Part shown: piece after piece, positions 5,512-30,807 of the stretch | How the letters are laid out: each line of letters opens with the position of its first letter | Position numbering within the stretch: position 1 is the first letter of the stretch | NCBI RefSeq assembly: GCF_025362505.1 | Contig: NZ_JANYGG010000063.1 | Location: forward strand, 1-33,283 | Source: Sphingomonas sp. | GTDB taxonomy: Bacteria > Pseudomonadota > Alphaproteobacteria > Sphingomonadales > Sphingomonadaceae | Direction of reading: 5' to 3' | Length of the DNA stretch: 33,283 bases | Program-made: the position numbers and the translations under genes | Notes under the pieces: model-generated | Database searches by the model: none | Told to the model about the DNA's origin: nothing | What the model saw: only the letters and a program-made list of their open reading frames with translations

Positions 5512-5540
5512 TATATAGCGAGCCGTGAACCGTTCATGAA
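5512..5540 (-). promoter_or_regulatory. Candidate promoter of the small secreted protein gene
   Basis: On the minus strand TTCATG (5535-5540) and TATATA (5512-5517) are separated by 17 bp and lie about 25 bp before the ATG at 5487. The -35 overlaps the stop of the lasso B2 gene. The match is modest; expression could also come by read-through from the B2 gene. Confidence 0.4.
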
Positions 5541-5956
5541 GATGAGTCGTTGGAAAACTGCGACAAGATGGCGAAATTGGACGCATTTTCGCAGCCGATG
5601 ACGTCAAGCTCGTCTGAGCGCACCCAGACATGGGCCTTCAATTCACCGTCAGTCATCGCCGCCCCGTAAAACAAAGTGACCGGGAAACCGCGGCGTGCGA
5701 GCATGATCGCGGCGGCGATGCCCTGTTCCATACAGAGCGCGCGCCACGGCATGCGGCGGGCCCACGCCTCGACCGCGCGGACCACCGACGCGATTGCTGC
5801 GGGGTCGGGTTCGGCTATCGCCCGGCGCACGATGGCGTATGTAGCGACGGTAGCGAAGGGGCGGAGGCGGATCGCAATCGAGGCGCGAAGAACGGCGAGT
5901 CCGGCTTCGGTGAGGAGCGTGGGGGCGGGGCGATCAAAGTGAGGCCGGCGGGTCAT
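5534..5956 (-). CDS. Lasso peptide biosynthesis B2 protein (transglutaminase-like leader peptidase)
   Basis: The 140-residue protein matches the B2 family, cysteine proteases of transglutaminase fold that cut the leader from the lasso precursor. The active-site block is ALCMEQGIAAAIMLARRGFP, with nucleophile Cys75, followed by KAHVWVRSDELDVIG, with His109 and a likely Asp118. The length is close to stand-alone B2 proteins, so the RRE is a separate gene, as seen at 10800-11087. The start ATG 5956 overlaps the stop of the cyclase gene by four bases (ATGA), so the two are translationally coupled. It is the last gene of the biosynthetic set. The reading frame is open further upstream, but that part is antisense-like and overlaps the cyclase. 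Confidence 0.85.
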   Translation of the reverse strand: MTRRPHFDRPAPTLLTEAGLAVLRASIAIRLRPFATVATYAIVRRAIAEPDPAAIASVVRAVEAWARRMPWRALCMEQGIAAAIMLARRGFPVTLFYGAAMTDGELKAHVWVRSDELDVIGCENASNFAILSQFSNDSSS

Positions 5957-7794
5957 GATGCGCCCTCGCGAACGAAGCGCATGAAGCGCAGCGCACCGAT
6001 TGCGCGGATGAGGTCGCGGCGGTAGCGTTGAACCTGGTCTTCGCGGTCCCAGCCTTCGGTCGGCCAGTTGATGAGGTGAGTGCGGATCGCGGCGAGGTCG
6101 AACAACGCGGCGGAATCGGGGTCGGCGCCGGCGCGGTCGATCTCCGCGATCAGCGAATCGCGTCCGAGCTCGATGCCGTGCCGCCAATTCTGGCCTTGGT
6201 AGCCACGGCGGCGCTCGTCGAGAACGCGCGGCGGAACCCGACCGCGAAGGAGCGAGCGGGCGAGCTGGCGCGGGCGGCCGTCATGGAAATAATGGTCGGC
6301 AGGAAGGCGAAGGCAAAGCTCGATCAGTCGCCGCGATCCGGTGGGGTCGACGGGGTCGAGGCCGAAGCGAGCGCGAACCCCGGCATTGGCGAGGCCGAGG
6401 TCGACGAAGCGAAGCTCGCGCAGGACGAGGGCGGCGTCATCGCCAGGACGGAAGCGTGGATCCTCGACCGTGTGCCGGGTGCGGTTAAGGGTTGCGCGGA
6501 CGAGCGGGTGGCCGCGACGCAGGAAGCCGAGAGGGACGGACTCGCGCGGGCCGTGACGAAGTCGGTCGAGCATCCGATGGATGGGCAGCGGTATGGCCCA
6601 GTTCAACGACATGTCGGCGATTCCGCTCCACCGCGCGCCACCGCTTGCGCGATGGGCTCGCGCCTCGTGCCACCAGCGGACGAATTGGCCGGCGGCGACG
6701 AGACCGGCGAGGCGCGAGCTTCCCTCGTGGCTGACGGTGAAATTACCCGACAGGCCGGTGAGCAGCGTGGTCGCGCCCACCGACCTCGCCGCGTCGTAGG
6801 TCGCTTCCATCCAGCCGAGATTGCAGACGTTGAGCAGGGGACGCTGAGTACTAGGGAAAAGCCGCTCGAGCGCGGCGATCGGCGGTTCGGCTGGACTGAT
6901 CGTGACGAGGTGCTCGACACCGGTAAAGCCGCGCGCAGTATCGGCGGCAACTGCGGCCTCGTCGACGAAGCGGTGTGTGTCGGCCGGGTCGCGGCGATCG
7001 GCGGTGGCGGTGATGGCGACGAGGCGCTGACCCGTTTGGCGTTGGCGCGCGGCGCTTTCCACGACCAGCGAGCTGTCGAGACCGCCGCTCAGCTGGGCTG
7101 CGATGACCGGCCCATCGAGCGCGTCGCGGACGGCACGGTCAAGTTCGGCGCGCACGGCTAACCGGGCATCGTCACGGGACCAAGCAAGTGGATCGAGCGA
7201 CGGGGTCCACCACGCGCGGGCACGGACCTCGCCGGGGCCAATTATGACGAACTGGCCGGGCTCTACCCTGCTGACCGAGGCGATGAAGCTGGCCGGGCCC
7301 GATTCATGCTCGATCGCGAGGTAGGAAACGATTCGCTCGAGATCGGCGCGGCGGTCGTCGAGGGGCGCGAGGGGCAGGGGGTGCGATGCGAACGCGACTC
7401 CGCGCGAGTCTGCGCGAAAATGAAGCGGGCGGTCGCCGAGGTGGTCGCGGGCAAGGACCAGCCGGCCTTCGGTGGGATCCCAAAGCGCGAAGGCGAAGCT
7501 GCCCTCGATGTGGTCGAACAGGCCGAGGCCCCAGCGCTGCCATGCGCCGAGAAGCAGCTGTGCGTCTCCGCGCCGCGAATCGACTCCGAGCGCGGGCCCG
7601 AGTTCGGAGTAGTTGGACAAGCGGGAATCGGTTACGATGGCCGCGCCCATCTCGTTGACCGCAAGTGCAATGTCGTAGTTTGCCGACAGAGAAGGCCGCC
7701 CCTCACCGCAGGAGAAAGTGACGGCCGATGCGTTGAAATCTTGATGCAGGTCATGCGGTCCGGACGCGGACCTGAACGACCACCTTCCTGAAAT
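5953..7794 (-). CDS. Asparagine-synthetase-like lasso cyclase (C protein); start codon abnormal
   Basis: This ATP-dependent macrolactam synthetase should adenylate the acidic side chain of the precursor and join it to the core N-terminus. The C-terminal synthetase domain has the pyrophosphate loop SGGLDSS (about 7069-7089). The N-terminal, glutaminase-like domain shows GDAQLLLGAWQRWG, GSFAFALWDP and LARDHLGDRPL. The first in-frame ATG (7650) would begin in the middle of that domain at MGAAIVTDSRLSNYSEL. Convincing coding sequence (GISGRWSF, then RPSLSANYDIALAVNE) continues upstream to about 7800 without ATG, GTG or TTG. An ATG at 7808 is out of frame by one base. Options are an ATT (7794) or ATA (7800) start, or a one-base deletion. 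I give the ATT as a working boundary. It lies about 30 bp after the precursor gene and overlaps B2 by 4 bp. Confidence 0.8.
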   Translation of the reverse strand: MSGRWSFRSASGPHDLHQDFNASAVTFSCGEGRPSLSANYDIALAVNEMGAAIVTDSRLSNYSELGPALGVDSRRGDAQLLLGAWQRWGLGLFDHIEGSFAFALWDPTEGRLVLARDHLGDRPLHFRADSRGVAFASHPLPLAPLDDRRADLERIVSYLAIEHESGPASFIASVSRVEPGQFVIIGPGEVRARAWWTPSLDPLAWSRDDARLAVRAELDRAVRDALDGPVIAAQLSGGLDSSLVVESAARQRQTGQRLVAITATADRRDPADTHRFVDEAAVAADTARGFTGVEHLVTISPAEPPIAALERLFPSTQRPLLNVCNLGWMEATYDAARSVGATTLLTGLSGNFTVSHEGSSRLAGLVAAGQFVRWWHEARAHRASGGARWSGIADMSLNWAIPLPIHRMLDRLRHGPRESVPLGFLRRGHPLVRATLNRTRHTVEDPRFRPGDDAALVLRELRFVDLGLANAGVRARFGLDPVDPTGSRRLIELCLRLPADHYFHDGRPRQLARSLLRGRVPPRVLDERRRGYQGQNWRHGIELGRDSLIAEIDRAGADPDSAALFDLAAIRTHLINWPTEGWDREDQVQRYRRDLIRAIGALRFMRFVREGAS

Positions 7795-7827
7795 GCCTAT
7801 CGAATCATTCCGTCAGATTGCCGCCGA

Positions 7828-7953
7828 TCAGGACTTGCCGCTAGTGCCCTCGCCGCTACCCGTAGCACCGGGCATCCCCGCAAGGCTCGCGGCGATCCGA
7901 TGGAGTTTCGGTACGGTCCAGCTGGCACGATGAGCAGTCTTTTTGTCGGCCAT
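7828..7953 (-). CDS. Lasso-type RiPP precursor peptide (41 residues)
   Basis: A short ORF between the nucleotidyltransferase and the cyclase. The leader carries SWTVPKLHRIAASLAG: W12-x2-P15-x-L17-x3-A21 matches the Y/W-x2-P-x-L-x3-G motif bound by lasso RREs. Known leaders have the -2 Thr about 12 residues after that Pro; here this is Met27, giving leader 1-28 and core GATGSGEGTSGKS (29-41). Glu35 is core position 7, so Gly1 and Glu7 would form a 7-residue ring with a 6-residue tail. The last residue is Ser, the site phosphorylated in kinase-containing lasso clusters. A GAGGAA Shine-Dalgarno precedes ATG 7953, and a TATAAT promoter lies just upstream. Cutting after Gly26 (Met1, Glu9 ring) is a less likely alternative. 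The precursor assignment is strong, the exact core less so. Confidence 0.8.
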   Translation of the reverse strand: MADKKTAHRASWTVPKLHRIAASLAGMPGATGSGEGTSGKS

Positions 7954-8017: not shown

Positions 8018-9139
8018 TTAATTGTGCAAACCCCCCGCTCGTCCCACCCGCCGGATGGCAAACAAGGGGATCCGCAGCAGGGGATAAAGGAACCGCCAAC
8101 GCCGCGGCAGAGGGAAATAGAGTCGGTCGTCGGACCCGCGCGCGCGGATCCGCAGCTCTGTCAGGCGATAGCCCCAGCCTCGCGCCAGCGACCAGCGACC
8201 GCGCCGTGCGATCGCTTCAACCCTTGCGGACCTCTGCTCCGCCAATGCCGCGAGCGAGATGGCGACAAGGCGCTGCGAGCGTCCGATCGCCAGCGCTCGC
8301 GGGCGAGTCCCGAACAGCTCGCCCGCCAGTGTTGCCGCGGCGGAGAGGGTATTCCCCACTCCGCAGGCTGAGGCCTGTTCGATCAGGCCATCCCCTTCGG
8401 TTGAGGTTTGGAGGAGCGCATTGAAATCGGCGATCCATTTCAGGCGCGACCAGGCGTGGGCGCTGCCATGGACCGCGAGATAAGCCAAATTGACAGGGTC
8501 GGCGAACGTCGAGACGGACCGCTCGCCGAGCAGCCGGACGTCGGTGGCGGGACTGGCCGCCGAGATCTCGCCGAGCAGCTGGTGGTGATCGCTGACGCGC
8601 CAATGGAGTTCGATCGTCGTGCCGCGCGGCGACTTATACTCGGCTTCTTTGGAGACGATCGACCAACGGTCGAACTCCTCCTCGTCAAGGGCGCGCGGGG
8701 GCACTCGCGGATCATAGCCGAGGAACCCCAACAGTGCGGCGGTGCGCACGGCATCAGCGGGGCCCACGAGCAGGTCGATGTCCCAGCTGCGTTTGAGGAG
8801 CGGATTGCCGTAGGCACGCGCGCCGAGCGGGGCGCCCTTGAGAAAGCGATGGACGATGCCCGCTTCGTCGAGCGCGGCGGCGACGCGCAGTGTCTCACCA
8901 ATGTCGCGCAGGCTCAAAGCGCGATGATGGCGGACGGCGGCATCGAGCGTGACGGGCACGCAGAGACTTGCAGCGGCAAGGCCGTGGGCGACCAGCGGTT
9001 CGACGCGGTGGCGGTCCGCAAGGCGTGTCACTTCGTCCCAATCGACGACCTCGCCCGCAGCGGCGCGGATCGCATCGCGGCGGGCATCATCGTCGGGCCA
9101 GCGGCAACAAGCGCACAGCAGGCGAAAGGCGGGAGTCAT
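8018..9139 (-). CDS. Nucleotidyltransferase family protein of the lasso cluster
   Basis: The 373-residue protein fits the uncharacterised nucleotidyltransferase family found beside lasso and related RiPP clusters (NTP_transf_5 type). The key block is FLKGAPLGARAYGNPLLKRSWDIDLLVG: K-G, Y-G, R and the D-I-D-L-L metal-binding pair of the polymerase-beta fold. A further acidic strand may be TIELHWRVSDH. The C-terminal half, after about residue 240, is helical and basic, ending in a hydrophobic stretch (FLYPLLRIPLFAIRR). The biochemical role is unknown to me; modification of the peptide (possibly of its phosphate) is an inference from context. Its ATG overlaps the ABC transporter stop (9136-9139), so B1, exporter and this gene are one translationally coupled unit. 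Confidence 0.8.
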   Translation of the reverse strand: MTPAFRLLCACCRWPDDDARRDAIRAAAGEVVDWDEVTRLADRHRVEPLVAHGLAAASLCVPVTLDAAVRHHRALSLRDIGETLRVAAALDEAGIVHRFLKGAPLGARAYGNPLLKRSWDIDLLVGPADAVRTAALLGFLGYDPRVPPRALDEEEFDRWSIVSKEAEYKSPRGTTIELHWRVSDHHQLLGEISAASPATDVRLLGERSVSTFADPVNLAYLAVHGSAHAWSRLKWIADFNALLQTSTEGDGLIEQASACGVGNTLSAAATLAGELFGTRPRALAIGRSQRLVAISLAALAEQRSARVEAIARRGRWSLARGWGYRLTELRIRARGSDDRLYFPLPRRWRFLYPLLRIPLFAIRRVGRAGGLHN

Positions 9140-10803
9140 GCCGCGTGGCCGCCGATCGCCAGTGCGCGGTCACACAGCGCGAGGCTCTCGGCACGATGGG
9201 CGACGAGCAGGACCGCCATCTTGGGGCGAGCGGCGCGAAGGCGTTCGACGAGCGCGCGTTCGCTGACGACGTCGAGCGCAGCGGTGGCTTCGTCGAGCAG
9301 GAGCAGCCGCGGCTGACGCATCAGGGCGCGCGCAATCAGCAGGCGTTGGCGCTCGCCGCCGGACAATCGATCGCCGCGCTCGGCGAGCCGCGTGTCGAGA
9401 CCGGACGGGCTGCCCCGAACCACGTCCGCAAGACCGACGAGACCAAGCGCGGCCCACAGCTCGGCATCGGAAGCCGAGCCGAGCGCACTGCGGATGGTTT
9501 CGTCGAACGGCGCTTCCTGCTGCCCGATATAGGAAAGTCCCGCCCGCCAGCCTGCCAAGCGTGTCGCGTCGAGCGGTGAGCCGTCGACGAGCAGTTGACC
9601 GGCGGTCGGCGCGATCAGGCCGGCGATGATATCGACCAGGCTGGTCTTGCCTGCCCCCGATGTCCCGGAGAGCGCCAGCCATTCGCCCCGCCGCAGCGTA
9701 AAGTCGACCGGAACAAGGCCTGCCCCGCCGCCGCGATCGAGCGCCAGCCCGAGGCCCTCGACGACGGTCCAGTCAAGCGGCGACGCCGTGGGCACGGGCG
9801 GCGCGACCAGCGATAATTCACCGAGCAAGGCCTCGATATTGGCAAAGGCCGGCGCGTGGGCAGCCAGGCTGGCCAGCGCCTGTTGCAGCGACTGCGCCGG
9901 ACCACTCATCCGCGCGAATAGAACGAGCAGCACGAGCAAGCGCGGCAGGTCGAGCGCCAATGCACTACCGACCGCGATGATCGTGGCGGCAGCAGCCGCG
10001 GCGGCGATCGCGTGCCGAGCGCGCGAATTCGCCAGAGCGGTCGCAAAATCGACCATCTGGTCGGCCAGCTTGACCAGGCTCCTGTCATAGGCATCGATGA
10101 ACCGACCCGCCGAGCCTTGGGCGAGCGCTGCCTTCAGGCCGGCGTACAAGCTGAAGGCAGCACGAACACTGACCTGTTGGCTGGCCGTTATCCCCAGCCC
10201 GCTCAGTTCGCTCCGGCGGGCAAGTTTAAGCATGGATGGCAGTCCAAGCGACAGCAGCACCAGCGCCCCGAGGGCCATCGGCCACGACAAGGTCGCAGCG
10301 ACAGCGAGCTGGATCAGCAGGAGAAACACGGCGGTCGCCGCCGACAGCCCAAAATGAACTGCCGTCGAGCTGCGCGGGACGTCGTTGTCGAGCAGCGCCT
10401 GCATTCCCGCCTGACCGACGCTGGCGGCGAACGGCCAGCCGCGGTCGGCGAGCGTGATCGCCGCGCGCAAGCGCAGGCTCCGCTCATAATCACTCTCGAG
10501 CCGCGCGCTGGCGCGATCGCGGACAAACAGGATCGCGGAACGGGCGATCATCAGCAGCAGAAAAACGCCGAGGACGAAGGGAAGCCGGTTCATTCCGGGA
10601 ATGACATCGGCGGCGAAGCGCGCGCCGCGCCCGCCCTCGCCCGACACCAGCGACAACATCGGCAACAAGATCAGCAGGCTGGCGCCCTCGGCGAGCGCCC
10701 CAGCCGCCATCAGCGCACCCGTGATCCAAAGCTTGCGGCCCGCCTCGCGGCGAACGTCGCGAAACAGGGCAGCGGCGGGAGTTTGATGCGGCGTCCCGCT
10801 CAT
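9136..10803 (-). CDS. ABC exporter of the lasso cluster (D protein)
   Basis: The 555-residue half-transporter has membrane and ATPase domains fused. Hydrophobic segments lie near residues 25-55, 74-95, 150-192 and 265-300. The ATPase has Walker A GTSGAGKTS (380-388), signature LSGGE (480-484), Walker B LLLLDE (500-505) and the switch His536 in VAHRAES. No C39 peptidase domain precedes the membrane part, so leader removal must be by the B2 protein. In lasso clusters this transporter exports the mature peptide and gives self-immunity. It begins inside the B1 stop (ATGA, 10800-10803) and ends inside the nucleotidyltransferase start. It presumably works as a homodimer in the inner membrane. Confidence 0.88.
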   Translation of the reverse strand: MSGTPHQTPAAALFRDVRREAGRKLWITGALMAAGALAEGASLLILLPMLSLVSGEGGRGARFAADVIPGMNRLPFVLGVFLLLMIARSAILFVRDRASARLESDYERSLRLRAAITLADRGWPFAASVGQAGMQALLDNDVPRSSTAVHFGLSAATAVFLLLIQLAVAATLSWPMALGALVLLSLGLPSMLKLARRSELSGLGITASQQVSVRAAFSLYAGLKAALAQGSAGRFIDAYDRSLVKLADQMVDFATALANSRARHAIAAAAAAATIIAVGSALALDLPRLLVLLVLFARMSGPAQSLQQALASLAAHAPAFANIEALLGELSLVAPPVPTASPLDWTVVEGLGLALDRGGGAGLVPVDFTLRRGEWLALSGTSGAGKTSLVDIIAGLIAPTAGQLLVDGSPLDATRLAGWRAGLSYIGQQEAPFDETIRSALGSASDAELWAALGLVGLADVVRGSPSGLDTRLAERGDRLSGGERQRLLIARALMRQPRLLLLDEATAALDVVSERALVERLRAARPKMAVLLVAHRAESLALCDRALAIGGHAA

Positions 10804-11087
10804 TCCTCCAGCACGCGAACCAGCCCGGCTTCGGCGAGCTCACCAAGGAACGGCAGCACGTCGTTCGCGCACGACTCGCGATCGACGTCGTACTCCTCGA
10901 CGAGGCGGTCGATGATCGTCGCGACCTGGATGGGCTCGCAGATCAGCGTCCAGATCACCGTGCCGACCTTGTCCATGCCGAAACAATCGCCCCGCGCAAG
11001 GTCGAGCGCAACCAGTTCCCCGTCGATCACCCCGGTCGGAATTTCGGCATTGCGGACCAGCCGGCTCATTTCGTCGATTGTGTTCAT
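10800..11087 (-). CDS. PqqD-like RiPP recognition element (lasso B1 protein)
   Basis: The 95-residue protein fits the PqqD/RRE fold, which binds the precursor leader and presents it to the B2 protease and cyclase. The N-terminal beta part contains GVIDGELVALDLARGDCFGMDKVGTVIW, the typical 'L-d-x-x-x-g-x-y-x-L-n-x-x-g-x-x-i-W' pattern. The helical part is IQVATIIDRLVEEYDVDRESCANDVLPFLGELAEAGLV. I choose ATG 11087 because an AAAGG Shine-Dalgarno sits just before it. An in-frame ATG at 11126 would add 13 residues but lacks such a site and would overlap the start codon of the divergent kinase. It is first of the B1-exporter-nucleotidyltransferase unit. Confidence 0.85.
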   Translation of the reverse strand: MNTIDEMSRLVRNAEIPTGVIDGELVALDLARGDCFGMDKVGTVIWTLICEPIQVATIIDRLVEEYDVDRESCANDVLPFLGELAEAGLVRVLEE

Positions 11088-11124
11088 GTAGCCTTTCAGA
11101 TCGGAGCGCTTTAGGGACTCTTGC

Positions 11125-12063
11125 ATGCATTATTATCACGCATTCGGGCTCAAGCTAGAGAGCGCGCTGCCGCTACCGGAACTTCAGCGCGGGAGTGGGC
11201 CGGCGGACGTCGTAATCGACTTCGCCGACGGCGAGCATCACGATCGAAACGAGCGCTGGCTGAGCGGTGCCGGCGAACACATCACCCTGCACCTCGACGA
11301 CATGGTGTTCACCGTCGAAGGGGGCCGCTCGGTGCGCATCGCGGCGCCGCCCGGAACCGGCGACAACGACATTCGCCTGTGGTTGCTTGGCACGGTCATG
11401 GCGACACTTCTTCACCAGCGCGGTTATTTTCCGCTCCATGCCAATTCGGTCCTGCTCGCCAGCGGCGGGGTGGCGGCGTTCAGCGGGCCGTCGGGCGCGG
11501 GCAAGTCGACCATGGCGGCGCTGCTCGACCGCCAGGGGTTTCGCGTGCTCGGCGACGACCTTTGTGCGATTCGCCTTGATGGTGAGCAGCGGCCGATGGT
11601 TTATGGCGGCATTCCGCGGCTCAAGCTGTGGCAGGCGACGCTCGACCTGTTCGGCCGCGCGCGCGACGGGCTCGAGCCGGTCGCCAGCGATTACGACAAG
11701 TTTCATGTGCCGCTCGATGCTGTGCAGGAAGTTGGCTCGCTTGACCCGCGCCCGCTCGAGCGGCTCTATCTTCTCGGCGCGAGGGACAGCGACGATGAGC
11801 CGCTGATCCAGCCGCTCCGCGGCATCCTGACGGCCGACGGCGTGCTCGACAATGCGTTTCGCTGGATGATCGGCCAATCGGTCGCGGGAGAGAACAGCCG
11901 GGTGCAGTTTGACCAGGCGATGGCGATCGCGCGCAAGATCGCGGTGTTCCGCGTCGCCCGGCGATGGGGCACGGATCAGCTGTTCGAGGAGGGCGCGCTG
12001 ATTGCCGCCCATTTGTCGTCTCCCTTGACGAACAAAGCGGCGGCGGGCGGCGTTGGGTCGTAG
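11125..12063 (+). CDS. HPrK-related serine kinase of the lasso cluster
   Basis: The 312-residue protein belongs to the HPr kinase/phosphorylase-like group found in lasso clusters. It begins MHYYHAFGLKLESALPLPEL, a typical N-terminus of this group. The P-loop GPSGAGKS spans residues 121-128, followed by LLDRQGFRVLGDDLCAIRL, whose Asp pair resembles the HPrK catalytic/metal region. PHYP-type residues precede the P-loop (FPLHANSVLLASGGVAAFSG). Relatives such as those acting on paeninodin-type peptides phosphorylate the C-terminal Ser of the precursor; the precursor here ends in Ser. It is divergent from B1, with 37 bp between the two chosen starts, so the promoters must overlap coding sequence. 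Its 3' end overlaps the convergent methyltransferase by 88 bp. Confidence 0.85.
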   Translation: MHYYHAFGLKLESALPLPELQRGSGPADVVIDFADGEHHDRNERWLSGAGEHITLHLDDMVFTVEGGRSVRIAAPPGTGDNDIRLWLLGTVMATLLHQRGYFPLHANSVLLASGGVAAFSGPSGAGKSTMAALLDRQGFRVLGDDLCAIRLDGEQRPMVYGGIPRLKLWQATLDLFGRARDGLEPVASDYDKFHVPLDAVQEVGSLDPRPLERLYLLGARDSDDEPLIQPLRGILTADGVLDNAFRWMIGQSVAGENSRVQFDQAMAIARKIAVFRVARRWGTDQLFEEGALIAAHLSSPLTNKAAAGGVGS

Positions 12064-12686
12064 CGCCGCGAGTCTCGGTCAAACAACGGTCCGTCGAGCA
12101 GGGGAAACCACCCGACCGGTCGAAGCACATCGGCAACGCTGCTGTCCTCGACCCGGTAATGGGCGTGGAACACGAGCAGGAATCCGCCGCAAGCAAGGCG
12201 ATCGACCAGCGCTACAACCCCGTCGTCGAACCGGGCAAACGGGTAGAGTCGGCCAAGGTCGGCGACCTGCTCGGCGATCATCCGCATGGGCTCGCGCTGG
12301 AGTACGGCGAGCGCCAGGACCGCGTCGAACGGTCCACTCGGGAGCCTGGACACGACGTCGATCAGCGGATCGGCGGCGGTAAGTCTGCGCGCGATGCGCC
12401 TCGCGCGCGGGTTGATTTCGACGCCGGTAAGCCGGGCCGTGGGCATCATCCGACGCAGCGAGAGCAATTCCTCCCCTGTCGAACAACCGAAGGAGAGAAT
12501 CGCGGCATTGGGGGATAATCGCGAAGCAAGTGCGGCGAACAGCTCGGGATAGCGATCGTCGAAGGTGGTCGTCGCGCTCTGGTGGAGCGAAGCGCGGTGG
12601 CGCAGCCGCGTCCAGACGACCGACCGGCCGGTCGCCGAGGTCAGCGACCGGATATGCCGGAACAGCGATTTCAGATAGCCGCTGAT
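11976..12686 (-). CDS. SAM-dependent methyltransferase, start uncertain
   Basis: The class I methyltransferase signature is clear: AILSFGCSTGEELLSLRRMMP (motif I), then LTGVEINPRARRIARRL and FDAVLALAVLQR, with a later GGFLLVFHAHYRVEDS. The preceding segment GYLKSLFRHIRSLTSATG looks like a natural N-terminus. Yet between the rpmJ stop and motif I there is no in-frame ATG, GTG or TTG. The boundary given is an ATC at 12686; a CTG at 12674 is another option. The open frame runs on through rpmJ in a different phase, which is not credible coding. Substrate unknown. It lies directly behind rpmJ on the same strand and overlaps the kinase gene tail to tail. It may be a housekeeping neighbour rather than part of the lasso cluster. 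Confidence 0.7.
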   Translation of the reverse strand: MSGYLKSLFRHIRSLTSATGRSVVWTRLRHRASLHQSATTTFDDRYPELFAALASRLSPNAAILSFGCSTGEELLSLRRMMPTARLTGVEINPRARRIARRLTAADPLIDVVSRLPSGPFDAVLALAVLQREPMRMIAEQVADLGRLYPFARFDDGVVALVDRLACGGFLLVFHAHYRVEDSSVADVLRPVGWFPLLDGPLFDRDSRRYDPTPPAAALFVKGDDKWAAISAPSSNS

Positions 12687-13032: not shown

Positions 13033-14298
13033 CTAGTGGACCGCGCGCCGCTGGGTGAGCGCCTTGGTGGCGAGCGAAAAGCGCGACTCGACGCTTTCGC
13101 GACCAAAGAGCAGCGCGGCTGCCTTGCGCCCGACCTCCGGGCCATGCTTGAAGCCGTGGCCCGAACCGCCGCCAACCAGCAACACGTCAGCGAGATGCGG
13201 ATGGTGATCGATCAGAAAGTCGCCATTGCCGCTGTTTTCATACTGGCACACCCGGCTTTCGACGAGCGGCGCACCACGCAGCAGTGGGAAGCGGCGGTCG
13301 CGAAAGGCGACGATCTCAGCCAGGGCGGCCTCGGTTGGTATGCGGCTTTGAGTGTCGGGATCGACCTCGACCCCGTGGGCGTCGTGCGCGAACTTGACCC
13401 CGCGCCCCTCCAGATCGGGGAAGCCGTAATAGATATCGCCGCCGTTGAAATCGGCCCAGCCGGGCATTGCCCCGGACAGGAAGCGGCGGTCCCCGGGTGG
13501 AGGAGCGAAGAAGAAGACTTCCTGGCGCGTCGCGACGATCCGCCGGCTGATCGCCTGCGGAAAGAGTTTGGGAAGCCACGGGCCGGCAGCGAAGACGAAG
13601 CGGTCGGCGGCGATCGTCTCGCCGCTTGACAGCCTGATCGACCCGAGGCTCGCGGCATCCTCCCGGGGTGGAGCCACGTCGCCGACGAGATACTGCCCCT
13701 GATCCGCGACGAACTTGTGGACCAGCGTCTGCACCGCGCGTCGCGCCATGAGTGCGCCGAAGCCCGGCTCGTAAAGCGCGGCATGGACCCCGCTGGGATC
13801 GATCATGGGAAAGCGCCGCGCCATGTCTGCGGGCGAGAACAGCTCGGTCGGCAGCTTCAACCGGCGATGCGCGGCAAGGCTGTCGGCGAGATAGGGATCG
13901 TCGGTGGGAAAGAAGAACAGGACACCGGCCGGGATGAAGATCGGCAGTCCCGAGCGAGCGCCGAGCTCCTTCCACTGCGCGAGGCTGTCGAGCGCCATGC
14001 GCGTGTAGATCGAATCCTTGCCATAGGCGGCGCGGGTCATGCGCGATTCGCCGCCCGAACTCGCGCGATTATTGGCTGGACCGCGCGCATCGACCAGCGT
14101 GACGTTGTGGCCGGCCAATTGAAGGTGGCGCGCGGTCCACGCCCCGAACACGCCTGCGCCGATCACCGCGATATGGAGCCTGGACCCGCGCGTCGCGACG
14201 CGCCCGATTGCGGGGGCAGTCACGGCGCCGGCGACCCCGCCGAGGACGGATCTGCGGGTCAGCGGGACCGGCATGTCTGAGCCGGTCCCGTTACGCAT
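13033..14298 (-). CDS. Tat-exported FAD-dependent amine oxidase (sarcosine oxidase / N-methyltryptophan oxidase-like)
   Basis: The 421-residue protein starts with a twin-arginine signal (LTRRSVLGGVAGAVTAPAIG), so it should be exported folded with its flavin. HIAVIGAGVFGAWTARHLQLAGHNVTLVDA is the GxGxxG nucleotide-binding motif of the DAO family. GGESRMTRAAYG and GGGSGHGFKHGPEVG are hallmarks of monomeric sarcosine/N-methyltryptophan oxidases. VCQYENSGNGDFLIDHHP aligns with their C-x-Y region, whose Cys carries the covalent FAD. The family oxidises secondary or N-methylated amines with O2, giving H2O2; the substrate here is unknown. Its ATG overlaps the stop of the TonB receptor by one base, so receptor and oxidase are coupled. 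An ATG eight codons in (MPVPLTRRS) is an alternative start. Confidence 0.82.
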   Translation of the reverse strand: MRNGTGSDMPVPLTRRSVLGGVAGAVTAPAIGRVATRGSRLHIAVIGAGVFGAWTARHLQLAGHNVTLVDARGPANNRASSGGESRMTRAAYGKDSIYTRMALDSLAQWKELGARSGLPIFIPAGVLFFFPTDDPYLADSLAAHRRLKLPTELFSPADMARRFPMIDPSGVHAALYEPGFGALMARRAVQTLVHKFVADQGQYLVGDVAPPREDAASLGSIRLSSGETIAADRFVFAAGPWLPKLFPQAISRRIVATRQEVFFFAPPPGDRRFLSGAMPGWADFNGGDIYYGFPDLEGRGVKFAHDAHGVEVDPDTQSRIPTEAALAEIVAFRDRRFPLLRGAPLVESRVCQYENSGNGDFLIDHHPHLADVLLVGGGSGHGFKHGPEVGRKAAALLFGRESVESRFSLATKALTQRRAVH

Positions 14299-16715
14299 CA
14301 GAAGGCCTGGCGGACGGTCAGGCCGATGTTGCGAGGCTGTCCGACGTTGAAGCCAAGCCGCGCCCGCCCGCCGCGCTCGCGGTCGAACGAGAGGAGCGGA
14401 GTCTCGTCGAACAAATTCTTGGCATAGAGCACGAACTCGGTGCCGCTGTTGAACTTGAGCCCGGCCGAGATGTCGACGAGATCATAGGACGGCAGCTTGA
14501 GGTTTAGCACTGTCGCACCAGTCCCGGTGGCGCCATTGAACGGTAGGCCAGAGATGAAGGTCCGCGGGTTATTTTCCTGATCAGACGGCTGAGTGAAGCG
14601 CGTGCCGACATGCTGGTACGACGCCGAGACATACCAGTCGGCGTTGCTCGAGAAACGCTGGCCGTAGGTTGCGGAGGCCGAAACCTGGAACTTGGGGACT
14701 GTCGGCAGGCGGTTACCGTCGCGGATTCCGGCGATGACTGTCCCGGACGTCGTCGTCACGCTCGAATCGAACTTCGAGTTGATGAAGCTCCCCGAGAGCG
14801 CGAGGTCGAGGCCCCGAATTGGCCTGGCCGACAATTCCGCCTCAATGCCCTGAGTGTGCGCCTTTGGCACGTTGAACACGACGCGCGACGAGCAGCTGCC
14901 CGCATCGGCCGTCACCTGCAGATTCTTGATCCGCGTGTAGAAAGCAGCTGCGTTGAACGTGAGGCCATGGCCCTGCGTTTTTATACCCCCCTCATAATTC
15001 CACAACGTCTCGTCATTGTAGCGCGGATGGTTGCCATAGGTCAGCGCGTCGACGCCGCCGGCCCCGCCCGAGCATAGCGGGATGTTGAGCGGATCATTGA
15101 CGCCGCCCAATCGAAACCCTTTCGATGCCTGGAGATTGACGCTGAGGTTGCGATCGGGCGCATACGTCGCAATCAGGCGCGGGCTAAAGCCGCTCGACTT
15201 GGTCCGGTCGATATTATTGTCACCGTTTGCAAATAGGCCGCCCGACTTGAACGTCCGCTTTTCCTTGAAGTCGTAATAGCGGCCACCGGCGGTCACCTTG
15301 AAGTCACCAGTCTTGTAGCTCGCCTCGCCGAATATCGCCGTCTGCTTGATCTTGTACGGCAGGTCGGCGTTGTACGGTGAGTTGAGCGGAAATCCGTTGG
15401 CTACAGCGACCGACGTCCCGGCACCAAACCGTGCATCCGTGAAGGCGTCGTACCCCGGGGTCGGCAGGCGCTGGGTATATTGGCGGTCGACGTGCGAATA
15501 GAAGCCCCCGATGACCCATTGGAACGGCCCCGGTCCGGTCGAGCCGACCCGCAATTCCTGAGAGAATTGCTTGACCTTGGTCGTATCAACTAGATTTGAC
15601 GGCAAGTTGACGCCTGCGGTGGGGAAGCCAAGATCGACGGACACCGACCCTGTCAGCGCCGATGCATCGCGGCTGACGAGAATGTTGCGGTGGATGTAGC
15701 TCGTCACCGAGGTGACCTCGACATTGGACGATAAGTCGGCCGAGGCGGTCAGGTCAGCAAGCGTCGTCTTATCGCGGAAAGACTCGCGTAGATTCAGATA
15801 TTGTTCGTTGGTCGCATAGGTGTGCGACGGCGTGGTGAACTGGTTAGAGTAAAGGTTGAACACCTCTTCGCGATTGAACCCGTTGGCCTTGATATCCTGA
15901 TAGACAATGCGCGGGGTCAGCTTAACGCCCGACGCTGGCTCCCACAGGATCGAGGCGCGGCCGCCGACGCGGCTGCCCGAATTGACGTTCTTCTTGGCCG
16001 CCGGCCCAATCGCATCGATGAAGCCGGCGTAGCGCGTGCCATAGCCGACGACGCGCAGCGCTGCGGTCGGCCCGAGCGGCAGGTTGACCGCGCCCTTTAG
16101 CCAGCCGCCGATGGCGTCTTCCTGCATCGTGTTGACGTTGGCTTCGATCAGCCCTTCCGTCTTGCCGAGCTTGGGCTGGTTGGTGATGTAGCGGATTGTG
16201 CCGCCGACGCTGCCCGATCCGAACAGCGTGCCTTGGGGACCGCGCAGCGTTTCGACGCGGTTCAAGTCGAATAGGTCGAAATCAGGCGTGAATAGTGACA
16301 GCGATACGACGCTTTCGTCGAGATAGACGCCCACCTGTTCCTTCACGCCCGGTTGGTCGCGGACGATCTGGCCGGCCGAGACGCCGCGGATGGAGACCTG
16401 GCTCTGCCCCGGCCCAAGGTTTTGGACGGCGAGGCCGGCGATATTGCGGCTGACGTCTTCCAGCGTCACCGCATTGGCGCGCTGGAGGTCGGCCTGGGTT
16501 TGGGCGTTGATCGAAAAAGGCACGTTCTGCAGCGTCGAAGCGCGCTTGGTCGCGGTGACGATGATTTCTTCTGGGGCGGAACCGTCGGTCGAGTTGCCGG
16601 TCGGTGCATTGGTTGCCTGCGCGCGATCCTCTGACGCGGTCTGGGCGAGCGCCGGCGTGGCGACGGCGAAGATAGCGACGCCGCCGAGCAGTCTGGTGAG
16701 CGAACGAGCGTTCAT
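14298..16715 (-). CDS. TonB-dependent outer-membrane receptor
   Basis: The 805-residue protein has a signal peptide (about residues 1-25, ending in TPALAQ). A TonB-box/plug region follows, beginning EEIIVTATKRASTLQNVPFSI, with VSIRGVSAG and VETLRGPQGTLFGSGSVGGTIRYITNQP. The 22-strand barrel ends with LTVRQAF; the terminal Phe is the usual barrel-assembly signal. The NTQP-type plug and VPFSI motif place it with the large sphingomonad receptors for complex or aromatic ligands; the ligand is not predictable. A strong AGGGGGGA Shine-Dalgarno precedes ATG 16715. It forms a coupled pair with the exported FAD oxidase, which may act on what the receptor imports. Its nearness to the lasso cluster allows, but does not prove, a link. 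Confidence 0.9.
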   Translation of the reverse strand: MNARSLTRLLGGVAIFAVATPALAQTASEDRAQATNAPTGNSTDGSAPEEIIVTATKRASTLQNVPFSINAQTQADLQRANAVTLEDVSRNIAGLAVQNLGPGQSQVSIRGVSAGQIVRDQPGVKEQVGVYLDESVVSLSLFTPDFDLFDLNRVETLRGPQGTLFGSGSVGGTIRYITNQPKLGKTEGLIEANVNTMQEDAIGGWLKGAVNLPLGPTAALRVVGYGTRYAGFIDAIGPAAKKNVNSGSRVGGRASILWEPASGVKLTPRIVYQDIKANGFNREEVFNLYSNQFTTPSHTYATNEQYLNLRESFRDKTTLADLTASADLSSNVEVTSVTSYIHRNILVSRDASALTGSVSVDLGFPTAGVNLPSNLVDTTKVKQFSQELRVGSTGPGPFQWVIGGFYSHVDRQYTQRLPTPGYDAFTDARFGAGTSVAVANGFPLNSPYNADLPYKIKQTAIFGEASYKTGDFKVTAGGRYYDFKEKRTFKSGGLFANGDNNIDRTKSSGFSPRLIATYAPDRNLSVNLQASKGFRLGGVNDPLNIPLCSGGAGGVDALTYGNHPRYNDETLWNYEGGIKTQGHGLTFNAAAFYTRIKNLQVTADAGSCSSRVVFNVPKAHTQGIEAELSARPIRGLDLALSGSFINSKFDSSVTTTSGTVIAGIRDGNRLPTVPKFQVSASATYGQRFSSNADWYVSASYQHVGTRFTQPSDQENNPRTFISGLPFNGATGTGATVLNLKLPSYDLVDISAGLKFNSGTEFVLYAKNLFDETPLLSFDRERGGRARLGFNVGQPRNIGLTVRQAF

Positions 16716-30042: not shown

Positions 30043-30447
30043 CTACTCCTTCCCTACCCCTTCCCAAGCTTCGATCTGCAGACCCGGGACGTCGCGAAAA
30101 TCGCGTCCGTTGAACGTGATGAGCGTTAGCCCGTGGACCAGCGCCGTGGCGGCGATCATTCGATCGGTCGTCTTGCGCCGCGAATAGCCGATCGCCGCAA
30201 CGATCTCGCGATAGGTGGCAATTTCGGGGGTACCGAAATCTAGCGTCTCGATCTGCTCGAGCATGCGGTCGAGGGCGCCGCGGCGAAGCATAGTTTCGTC
30301 GGGCTCGGCATAGGCGCCATTTTCAAGCTCTACCCGGCTGACGATCGACAAATGATGGTCTGGGCCGAGTTCGATCAACCGTTCACCGACTCTTATGTCA
30401 CCATCGCGAAGGTGGATGGCAACGTTGGTGTCGATCAGAAAGCGCAA
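30043..30447 (-). CDS. vapC: VapC-type PIN-domain ribonuclease toxin
   Basis: The 134-residue toxin is a metal-dependent RNase that cuts RNA, in known cases tRNA or rRNA, when its antitoxin is lost. PIN acidic residues are in RFLIDTNVAIHLRDGD (Asp), VSRVELENGAYAE (Glu), KTTDRMIAATALVHG (Asp) and FNGRDFRDVPGL (Asn/Asp). The set looks intact, so the toxin should be active. The start is TTG 30447, since LRFLIDTNV is the canonical N-terminus and it lies 4 bp after the vapB stop; the longer open frame would overlap vapB. The weak start codon may keep toxin below antitoxin. Confidence 0.88.
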   Translation of the reverse strand: MRFLIDTNVAIHLRDGDIRVGERLIELGPDHHLSIVSRVELENGAYAEPDETMLRRGALDRMLEQIETLDFGTPEIATYREIVAAIGYSRRKTTDRMIAATALVHGLTLITFNGRDFRDVPGLQIEAWEGVGKE

Positions 30448-30451
30448 GCGT

Positions 30452-30724
30452 TTAGGAGCCGCGCCGCTCGGGCCACTCGATCGGCTGGCGCTTCTGCACC
30501 GATCCCGGCTTAGACATCGCGCCAAGGTCCTCGATCATTTCCCGAAACTTGCGCTGCTTCTCGTCGGGATCGTCTGCGAGTCGGGCAGTCAGCACATTGC
30601 CATGGCGGCTGACCATCATAAGTTCGTCGGGCCCGACATCGAGCGCTTTGGGCAAACGAAGTGCAATGCTGTTGCCGCTCCTGAACGTCTTGGTCTGGTG
30701 CTCGCCCACGGGTGAGGACTCCAT
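30452..30724 (-). CDS. vapB: VapB-type antitoxin
   Basis: The 90-residue antitoxin has an AbrB/SpoVT-type swapped-hairpin DNA-binding domain: TKTFRSGNSIALRLPKAL then LDVGPDELMMVSRHGN. The C-terminal half (DEKQRKFREMIEDLGAM, then PIEWPERRGS) should wrap the toxin and block its active site. Start ATG 30724 is chosen over an in-frame ATG at 30793, because domain homology starts soon after it and the putative promoter lies between them. With VapC it should repress its own promoter. It is divergent from the HNH endonuclease gene. Confidence 0.88.
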   Translation of the reverse strand: MESSPVGEHQTKTFRSGNSIALRLPKALDVGPDELMMVSRHGNVLTARLADDPDEKQRKFREMIEDLGAMSKPGSVQKRQPIEWPERRGS

Positions 30725-30735
30725 ATGATTGACGC

Positions 30736-30743
30736 GTATATAC
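30736..30743 (-). promoter_or_regulatory. vapBC promoter/operator candidate
   Basis: GTATATAC, a perfect 8-bp palindrome, contains TATATA (30737-30742), a good -10 about 13 bp before the vapB ATG. Weak -35-like sequences (GTGGAC/TGGACT) lie 17-18 bp upstream on the minus strand. The overlap of palindrome and -10 fits autorepression by VapBC. Confidence 0.45.
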
Positions 30744-30807
30744 ATTGAGAGCGAGTGCAAGTCCACATGCGCTTTGACCTGGTGCAAACGCACGATATCG
30801 AGCTGTA

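Follow-up and report, generated by a model that had tools for sequence, protein, structure and literature searches.

A probable lasso-peptide precursor with a likely Ala(-2) leader in a kinase-type lasso cluster of Sphingomonas sp.

The open reading frame (ORF) at 7828-7953 on the minus strand of a Sphingomonas sp. contig is very probably a lasso-peptide precursor gene; the ORF is real and lies in a complete lasso cluster of the window, the whole 33,283-nucleotide stretch of DNA analyzed here. Comparison with the precursors of relatives inclines us to view the encoded peptide as giving rise to a lasso product of the paeninodin kind that is tailored by a kinase, and on balance favours MPGATGSGEGTSGKS as the core, with a nine-residue Met27-Glu35 lactam and Ala25 as the -2 residue.

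Four things were directly observed: the genes themselves, a leader register common to the relatives, conservation of the C-terminal Ser, and the motif of the kinase. From them a route of predicted cleavage, ring closure, threading, phosphorylation, sugar addition and export can be drawn. The PqqD-type protein B1 would bind the Trp12-Pro15-Leu17 leader motif, B2 would cleave after Gly26 and the cyclase would close a lactam between the amino group of Met27 and the side chain of Glu35, leaving the six-residue tail GTSGKS. Phosphorylation would follow the scheme discussed below, the PF14907 protein may put a sugar on the phosphate, and the ABC protein would export the product. All core predictions in the group depend on the cut rule: under the usual Tyr(-17) rule, most group precursors would seem to form 6- or 7-residue rings or would be discarded, and counting from Ala(-2) yields ordinary 8- and 9-residue rings.

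Loci and precursor sets

The cyclase was found in 33 of the 197 genomes searched, including that of the window (E up to 1e-30), and 48 of the 71 genomes from the genus had a lasso B2. Of 45 stretches, made up of 44 loci plus the window, 41 had a cyclase match; 41 ORFs with the Trp motif lay upstream of these 41 matches, and six of the 41 loci (L065, L066, L096, L103, L104 and L106) lacked such an ORF. A set of 37 precursors, all from one genus and including the window, comprised 14 type-A precursors, that of the window among them, with the pattern W..P.L.......A.M followed by Glu-Gly, and 23 type-B precursors with the pattern W..P.V....AG.AE, usually followed by Asp-Gly. The ORFs dropped from the 41 were L071-9727 and L084-7381, whose loci each contain another ORF that fits, and L102-7750, which has a different leader type and is acid-free; none of these three has Ala at +13 (counted from the leader Trp), and L105 was set apart. 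For a wider set, 40 ORFs were listed from the 44 loci and 30 of them, from 25 loci, were picked by hand.

In profile searches of the fetched stretches, B2 was found in 10/10 type-A and 8/23 type-B loci, the kinase in 9/10 and 16/23, and PF14907 in 1/10 (the window) and 12/23, respectively; some type-B stretches are short contigs in which absences are weak, and the one type-A locus in which no kinase was found is L097, which is truncated by the end of its contig, also before the PF14907 region. L102:7750-8010 (minus strand) belongs to another kinase-type cluster, in which the precursor end is NVAGPNNTGGQGGKS, the core has neither Asp nor Glu and hence no obvious ring acid, and two relatives of the methyltransferase of the window lie nearby.

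The precursor gene and its cluster

The features of the cluster are as follows.

5534..5956, minus strand: B2 leader peptidase (NF033537, 66.7 bits, cut-off 33; the open frame extends further upstream)
5953..7650, minus strand: lasso cyclase (Asn synthase, GATase_7; PF00733, PF13537; frame open up to 7818)
7828..7953, minus strand: lasso precursor gene (ORF list; homologues equally placed beside cyclases)
7876..7953, minus strand: predicted leader, residues 1-26 (with the Trp12-x2-Pro15-x-Leu17 motif that B1 would bind; -2 residue Ala25)
7831..7875, minus strand: predicted core MPGATGSGEGTSGKS, residues 27-41 (register set by comparison with relatives and with precursors of the paeninodin type)
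8018..9139, minus strand: PF14907 nucleotidyltransferase-like protein (NTP_transf_5; 144.6 bits)
9136..10803, minus strand: ABC transporter, D gene (PF00005, 108.2 bits)
10800..11126, minus strand: B1, PqqD-type leader-binding protein (PF05402, 61.2 bits, over the gathering score)
11125..12063, plus strand: HPr-type kinase, divergent from B1 (conserved motif residues; profile match to 3tqf)
11976..12680, minus strand: methyltransferase-like gene, convergent with the kinase (weak methyltransferase matches)

The precursor ORF, located between the cyclase and PF14907 genes, consists of 41 codons and a stop and encodes MADKKTAHRASWTVPKLHRIAASLAGMPGATGSGEGTSGKS, which contains a Y/W-x2-P-x-L leader motif and an acid at core position 7-9. 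A preliminary description, made from the letters of the DNA, had named Trp12, Pro15, Leu17, Gly29, Glu35 and Ser41 in this product, all of which are in place, and its view of the ORF as a lasso precursor with a Gly-rich core is supported. Searches against NCBIfam and Pfam matched the precursor to no family at E up to 1. The ORF goes beyond chance because a relative with an 85%-identical cyclase, in another Sphingomonas metagenome-assembled genome (L097), carries a matching ORF beside it, with a core, MSGATGSGEGASGKS, identical to that of the window at 13/15 residues. From Trp12 to residue 26 (Trp to +14), the two sequences are identical at 7/15 positions; the core of this pair is thus more conserved than the leader, with the step at Met27.

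The preliminary description had also considered that a second, better precursor in the cluster would count against this ORF; none emerged in the window when loose Trp/Tyr/Phe-x2-Pro ORFs were sought up to 3.5 kb from the cyclase on its own strand. Apart from the precursor, this gave two Phe-motif ORFs, inside the PF14907 gene and the B2 region, both of which were rejected. Elsewhere, four type-A loci (L072, L083, L087 and L088) have two precursor ORFs each upstream of the cyclase. Between precursor and cyclase, folding detected no structured RNA (z -0.13) and a consensus scan no promoter or terminator.

Among the enzymes, B2 retains Cys75 in 24/24 aligned rows and His109 in 23/24. The cyclase exceeds the gathering scores of PF00733 and PF13537 and scores 155 bits against the lasso-specific NF033535, below the cut-off of 525; B1 likewise reaches 63.3 bits against NF033536, below the cut-off of 80. 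The cyclase frame is open from 7650 to 7818 (minus strand), beginning shortly past the precursor stop and in the precursor's own frame, and this segment aligns gaplessly with L097, where the two share no ATG, GTG or TTG and have one ATA codon in common. A cyclase start at 7650 is not conserved, the ATG of the window being ACG in L097. Changes between the two upstream of 7650 number 16, 8 and 12 at the three codon positions, a weakly coding pattern, and the cyclase start codon may be noncanonical.

The methyltransferase-like gene at 11976-12680 may tailor the peptide, its membership in the cluster being uncertain; besides the two in L102, relatives of this gene occur in the L105, L177 and L187 stretches. 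Beyond it, at 13033-16715 (minus strand), are genes for a FAD oxidoreductase and a TonB-dependent receptor that were searched for by tblastn across the 44 loci without a match at E 1e-3 and therefore probably lie outside the lasso cluster.

Cut site and ring size

When the core is started at Trp+15, an acid falls at position 8 or 9 in 37/37 precursors, compared with a mean of 5.4 and a maximum of 14/37 for shuffled cores (2000 trials). The same start gives Ala as the -2 residue in 37/37, a count partly owing to the filter, which required Ala or Thr at +13 plus an acid, so that the fair figure is the 38/41 unfiltered rows with Ala at Trp+13. Within type A, the Ala25 column is Ala in 14/14 rows and the Met27 column is Met in 13/14. 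The -2 residue of the favoured reading is accordingly Ala25 rather than Thr, and not the Met that the preliminary description had placed there instead of Thr.

In the wider set, with Thr/Ala(+13), Thr(+14) or Ile/Val(+15) taken as the -2 residue, the acid lies 8-9 residues into the core in 28/30 rows, a figure that is descriptive and not a test because the three registers were chosen after looking and some rows fit two; L189 and L190 fit none of them. The distance from Trp to the cut seems, from these alignments, to differ between subgroups, so that the Tyr(-17) rule would not be simply transferable.

The canonical Thr occupies +13 in the precursors of Priestia, L181, L182, L183 (two) and L186, with the acid at 8 or 9 from +15. 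In the Priestia precursor, which is plasmid-encoded and annotated as 'paeninodin family lasso peptide', the motif residue is Trp5, followed by Thr, Met and Asp at +13, +14 and +23, respectively. The leader of the paeninodin precursor has spacing equal to that of the Priestia precursor, and the paeninodin core is AGPGTSTPD... The calculated [M+2H]2+ of this core is 1209.504. For B2-cut PadeA, the accessible text of PMC5067487 gives 1209.5, and the core as written here is therefore supported, the leader not. Paeninodin-type precursors of equal spacing are cut after +14; Glu35 of the window stands at +23, as does the Priestia Asp, and therefore Met27 aligns with paeninodin Ala1 and Glu35 with Asp9.

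Departures from the canonical leader and core have precedents. Ile/Val(-2) leaders have been described, also from Sphingomonadales, and the combination of Tyr(-17) with Ile(-2) was demonstrated experimentally in the Bsf system, according to the sections available of PMC10368454; residue 1 can also be noncanonical, as metanodin, with Asn at this position, illustrates in the available text of PMC12670498. No report of Met as residue 1 or of Ala(-2) was found in the literature searched, which did not include the SyanA sequence, and this counts against the Met27 reading as far as Met1 is concerned.

A cut after Met27 would give the core PGATGSGEGTSGKS, with an eight-residue Pro28-Glu35 ring and Met at -1, and is a possible reading that we hold to be less probable than not. 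This register (Trp+16 start) also places an acid at 7-9 in 37/37 precursors, and at 8-9 in 25 of them, and type A carries only small residues at +16 (Pro 8, Gly 3, Ser 2, Ala 1; n = 14). The type-A precursors L074 and L085 can be read as Thr(-2)-Met(-1) followed by GGSTRNGE, yielding a Gly1-Glu8 ring, in the manner of the Thr(+14) relatives L168 and L170, where the Met at +15 would be the -1 residue; L169 is equally ambiguous. However, the resulting -2 residues, Arg 9, Thr 2, Gln 1, Leu 1 and Gly 1 in type A and Glu in 23/23 type-B rows, are unlike the Thr, Ala, Ile or Val of other groups, no report of a Pro1 lactam was found in the literature searched, and in both trees described below the nearest rows outside type A have Ala(+13).

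The cut before Gly29 that the preliminary description regarded as fixed by the leader motif, with a Gly1-Glu7 ring and Met at -2, is the least likely of the three and, in our judgement, very improbable: the Tyr(-17) spacing on which it relied is correct for the Ile(-2) kinase cluster Bsf (PMC10368454, as far as the accessible text goes) and Gly occupies +17, the Gly29 column, in 10/14 type-A rows, but a Trp+17 start puts an acid at 7-9 in 27/37 precursors, leaving 10/37 with none there, and the -2 column becomes mixed (Met 13, Ala 9, Asn 6, Ser 6, others 3). The objection that the description had itself foreseen, a differently placed acid in orthologous precursors, thus applies in part, to those ten rows. 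Of the residues for which it proposed invariance, Gly29 holds to the extent just given, Glu35 corresponds to an acid in 12/14 type-A rows, with the acid one residue earlier in L072-9680 and L087-8345, and Ser41 to a C-terminal Ser in 12/14. The seven-residue ring is probably wrong, the relatives favouring nine or eight residues, and the cut is better counted from the group's -2 residue at Trp+13, Ala25.

Cyclase and B2 trees

Type A forms one group (SH-aLRT 83) in the cyclase tree, which came from a quick search; this group joins L089 and L092 (SH-aLRT 98), whose cores, AGPNPVSPE and AGPNPNAPE, follow the AGP....P(acid)9 pattern of paeninodin; beyond the genus, the nearest rows are L162 and L161, each with Ala(+13). 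The B2 tree places the window and seven other type-A rows with L161, L162, L175 and L105 (84/90, not starred), all of which have Ala(+13). Its other large group, of 13 rows (97/95), takes in the Thr(+14) and Val/Ile(+15) rows and also 5/9 of the +13 rows (L103, L177, L181, L183 and L186), and the type-A B2s of L074 and L085 (2/10) are placed elsewhere, so the B2 tree sorts the leader classes uncleanly. The two trees favour a predicted cut after Trp+14 for the window without settling it.

Kinase and phosphorylation

Against the HPr-kinase family models the kinase scores far below the cut-offs. Nevertheless, the His-Lys-Asp-Asp motif is present: in 31 aligned rows including the window, His105, Gly124, Gly126, Lys127, Ser128 and Asp145 are found in 31/31 and Asp144 in 30/31. 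A profile of 22 kinase rows searched against solved structures gave HPr(Ser) kinase 3tqf as the best match (E 1.7e-8), which spans a 51-residue P-loop stretch, with ABC ATPases and PEP carboxykinase close behind. In the available portions of PMC9266682 and PMC8498205, this motif is ascribed to lasso kinases acting on the C-terminal Ser, which they phosphorylate in the linear precursor and not in the threaded peptide, and the nucleotidyltransferase PsmN attaches a hexose to the phosphate in pseudomycoidin.

A C-terminal Ser ends 35/37 genus cores, Ser41 of the window among them, and 27/30 rows of the wider hand-picked set. By analogy, the neighbouring kinase may phosphorylate the last residue, Ser41, as the preliminary description had suggested; the cluster encodes both this Ser and a kinase with the motif. 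Two observations weigh against the favoured explanation as a whole: in the fetched type-B stretches 7/23 are without the kinase and 15/23 without B2, and yet all 23 cores end in Ser, and L087 has a kinase, yet neither of its cores ends in Ser.

That the kinase marks another core residue, the C-terminal Ser not being the site, has a precedent in BsfK, which phosphorylates core Ser3 according to the accessible text of PMC10368454. This alternative is improbable in view of the retention of the C-terminal Ser in nearly all cores, the lack of any fixed place for Ser/Thr in the listed rings (37 rows) and the behaviour of PadeK, ThcoK and SyanK, whose substrate is in each case the C-terminal Ser in what is available of PMC9266682.

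Tail, plug and threading

The tail after Glu35, GTSGKS, is without a bulky residue, as the preliminary description had remarked, yet this is usual among the relatives examined: the tails of the 37 rows consist mostly of Gly, Ser, Lys and Asn, and because 30/37 are without Phe, Trp, Tyr or His, the plug-less tail, as predicted from these sequences, is a trait of the group and not a peculiarity of the window ORF.

Whichever ring is formed, and separately from the question of the cut, the product might be a branched macrolactam that does not stay threaded, which we consider unlikely. The aromatic-free tails just described speak for it; against it stand the full lasso gene set in the cluster and the presence of a kinase and a PF14907 protein that may install a stopper. 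Moreover, modest residues suffice to keep the tail in place in some lasso peptides. Should the tail be threaded, a phosphate or phosphate-sugar at Ser41 is the sole candidate stopper seen, because nothing in the encoded sequence is bulky enough to hold the tail. A sugar as the general plug was considered and rejected, since among type-A loci PF14907 was found in the window locus only, though other type-A tails are also aromatic-free. The broader proposal that sphingomonads harbour a large lasso group with an Ala(-2) leader, a noncanonical residue 1 (here Met) and bulk-free tails, with a phosphate or phosphate-sugar at the C-terminal Ser acting as the installed plug, is speculative and would have to be called quite unlikely in its entirety. 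Threaded tails would allow the idea that a modified C-terminus can stand in for a bulky plug to be tested directly, and unthreaded ones would mean that lasso enzymes make branched peptides in considerable number.

Comparison with known systems

The precursors of paeninodin (Paenibacillus dendritiformis) and Priestia resemble that of the window in having Trp/Tyr at position 0, the -2 residue at +13, the acid at +23 and a C-terminal Ser, and in their HPr-type kinase and separate B1 and B2; the window differs, in the favoured reading, in having Ala for Thr at -2, Met for Ala/Leu at residue 1, Glu as the ring acid, an aromatic-free six-residue tail and no NCBIfam precursor match. Sphingomonad kinase-type lasso clusters are already known from SyanA/SyanK of Sphingobium yanoikuyae, in which, by the account available in reviews, the C-terminal Ser is polyphosphorylated. 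What is unusual in the window is Ala(-2) for Thr, a possible Met1 and the aromatic-free tails, and the system is a variant of the paeninodin type.

As described in the text available, the pseudomycoidin cluster (Bacillus pseudomycoides) also has a kinase and a nucleotidyltransferase beside the lasso genes, and its C-terminal Ser receives a phosphate and then a hexose; it differs in being a Bacillus cluster. The Bradymonadales Bsf cluster shares with the window a kinase, nucleotidyltransferase, B1, B2, cyclase and a non-Thr -2 residue and differs, in the parts of its report available, in the Tyr(-17) spacing of its Ile(-2) leader and the phosphate on ring Ser3. Huascopeptin, the first Gly1-Asp7 ring according to the title of its description, has a small core such as the preliminary description proposed for the window, for which, however, a seven-residue ring is unsupported.

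Additional observations

In Priestia, the kinase of the paeninodin-type cluster (L103:6377-7312, plus strand) carries the public annotation 'aldolase'. The cyclases of L027/L086 and L015/L074 showed, in the genome search, one in-frame TGA in each of two genes, and these clusters are perhaps decaying. Finally, two overlapping small ORFs at 30043-30793 (minus strand) of the window resemble, by eye, a VapBC-type toxin-antitoxin pair.
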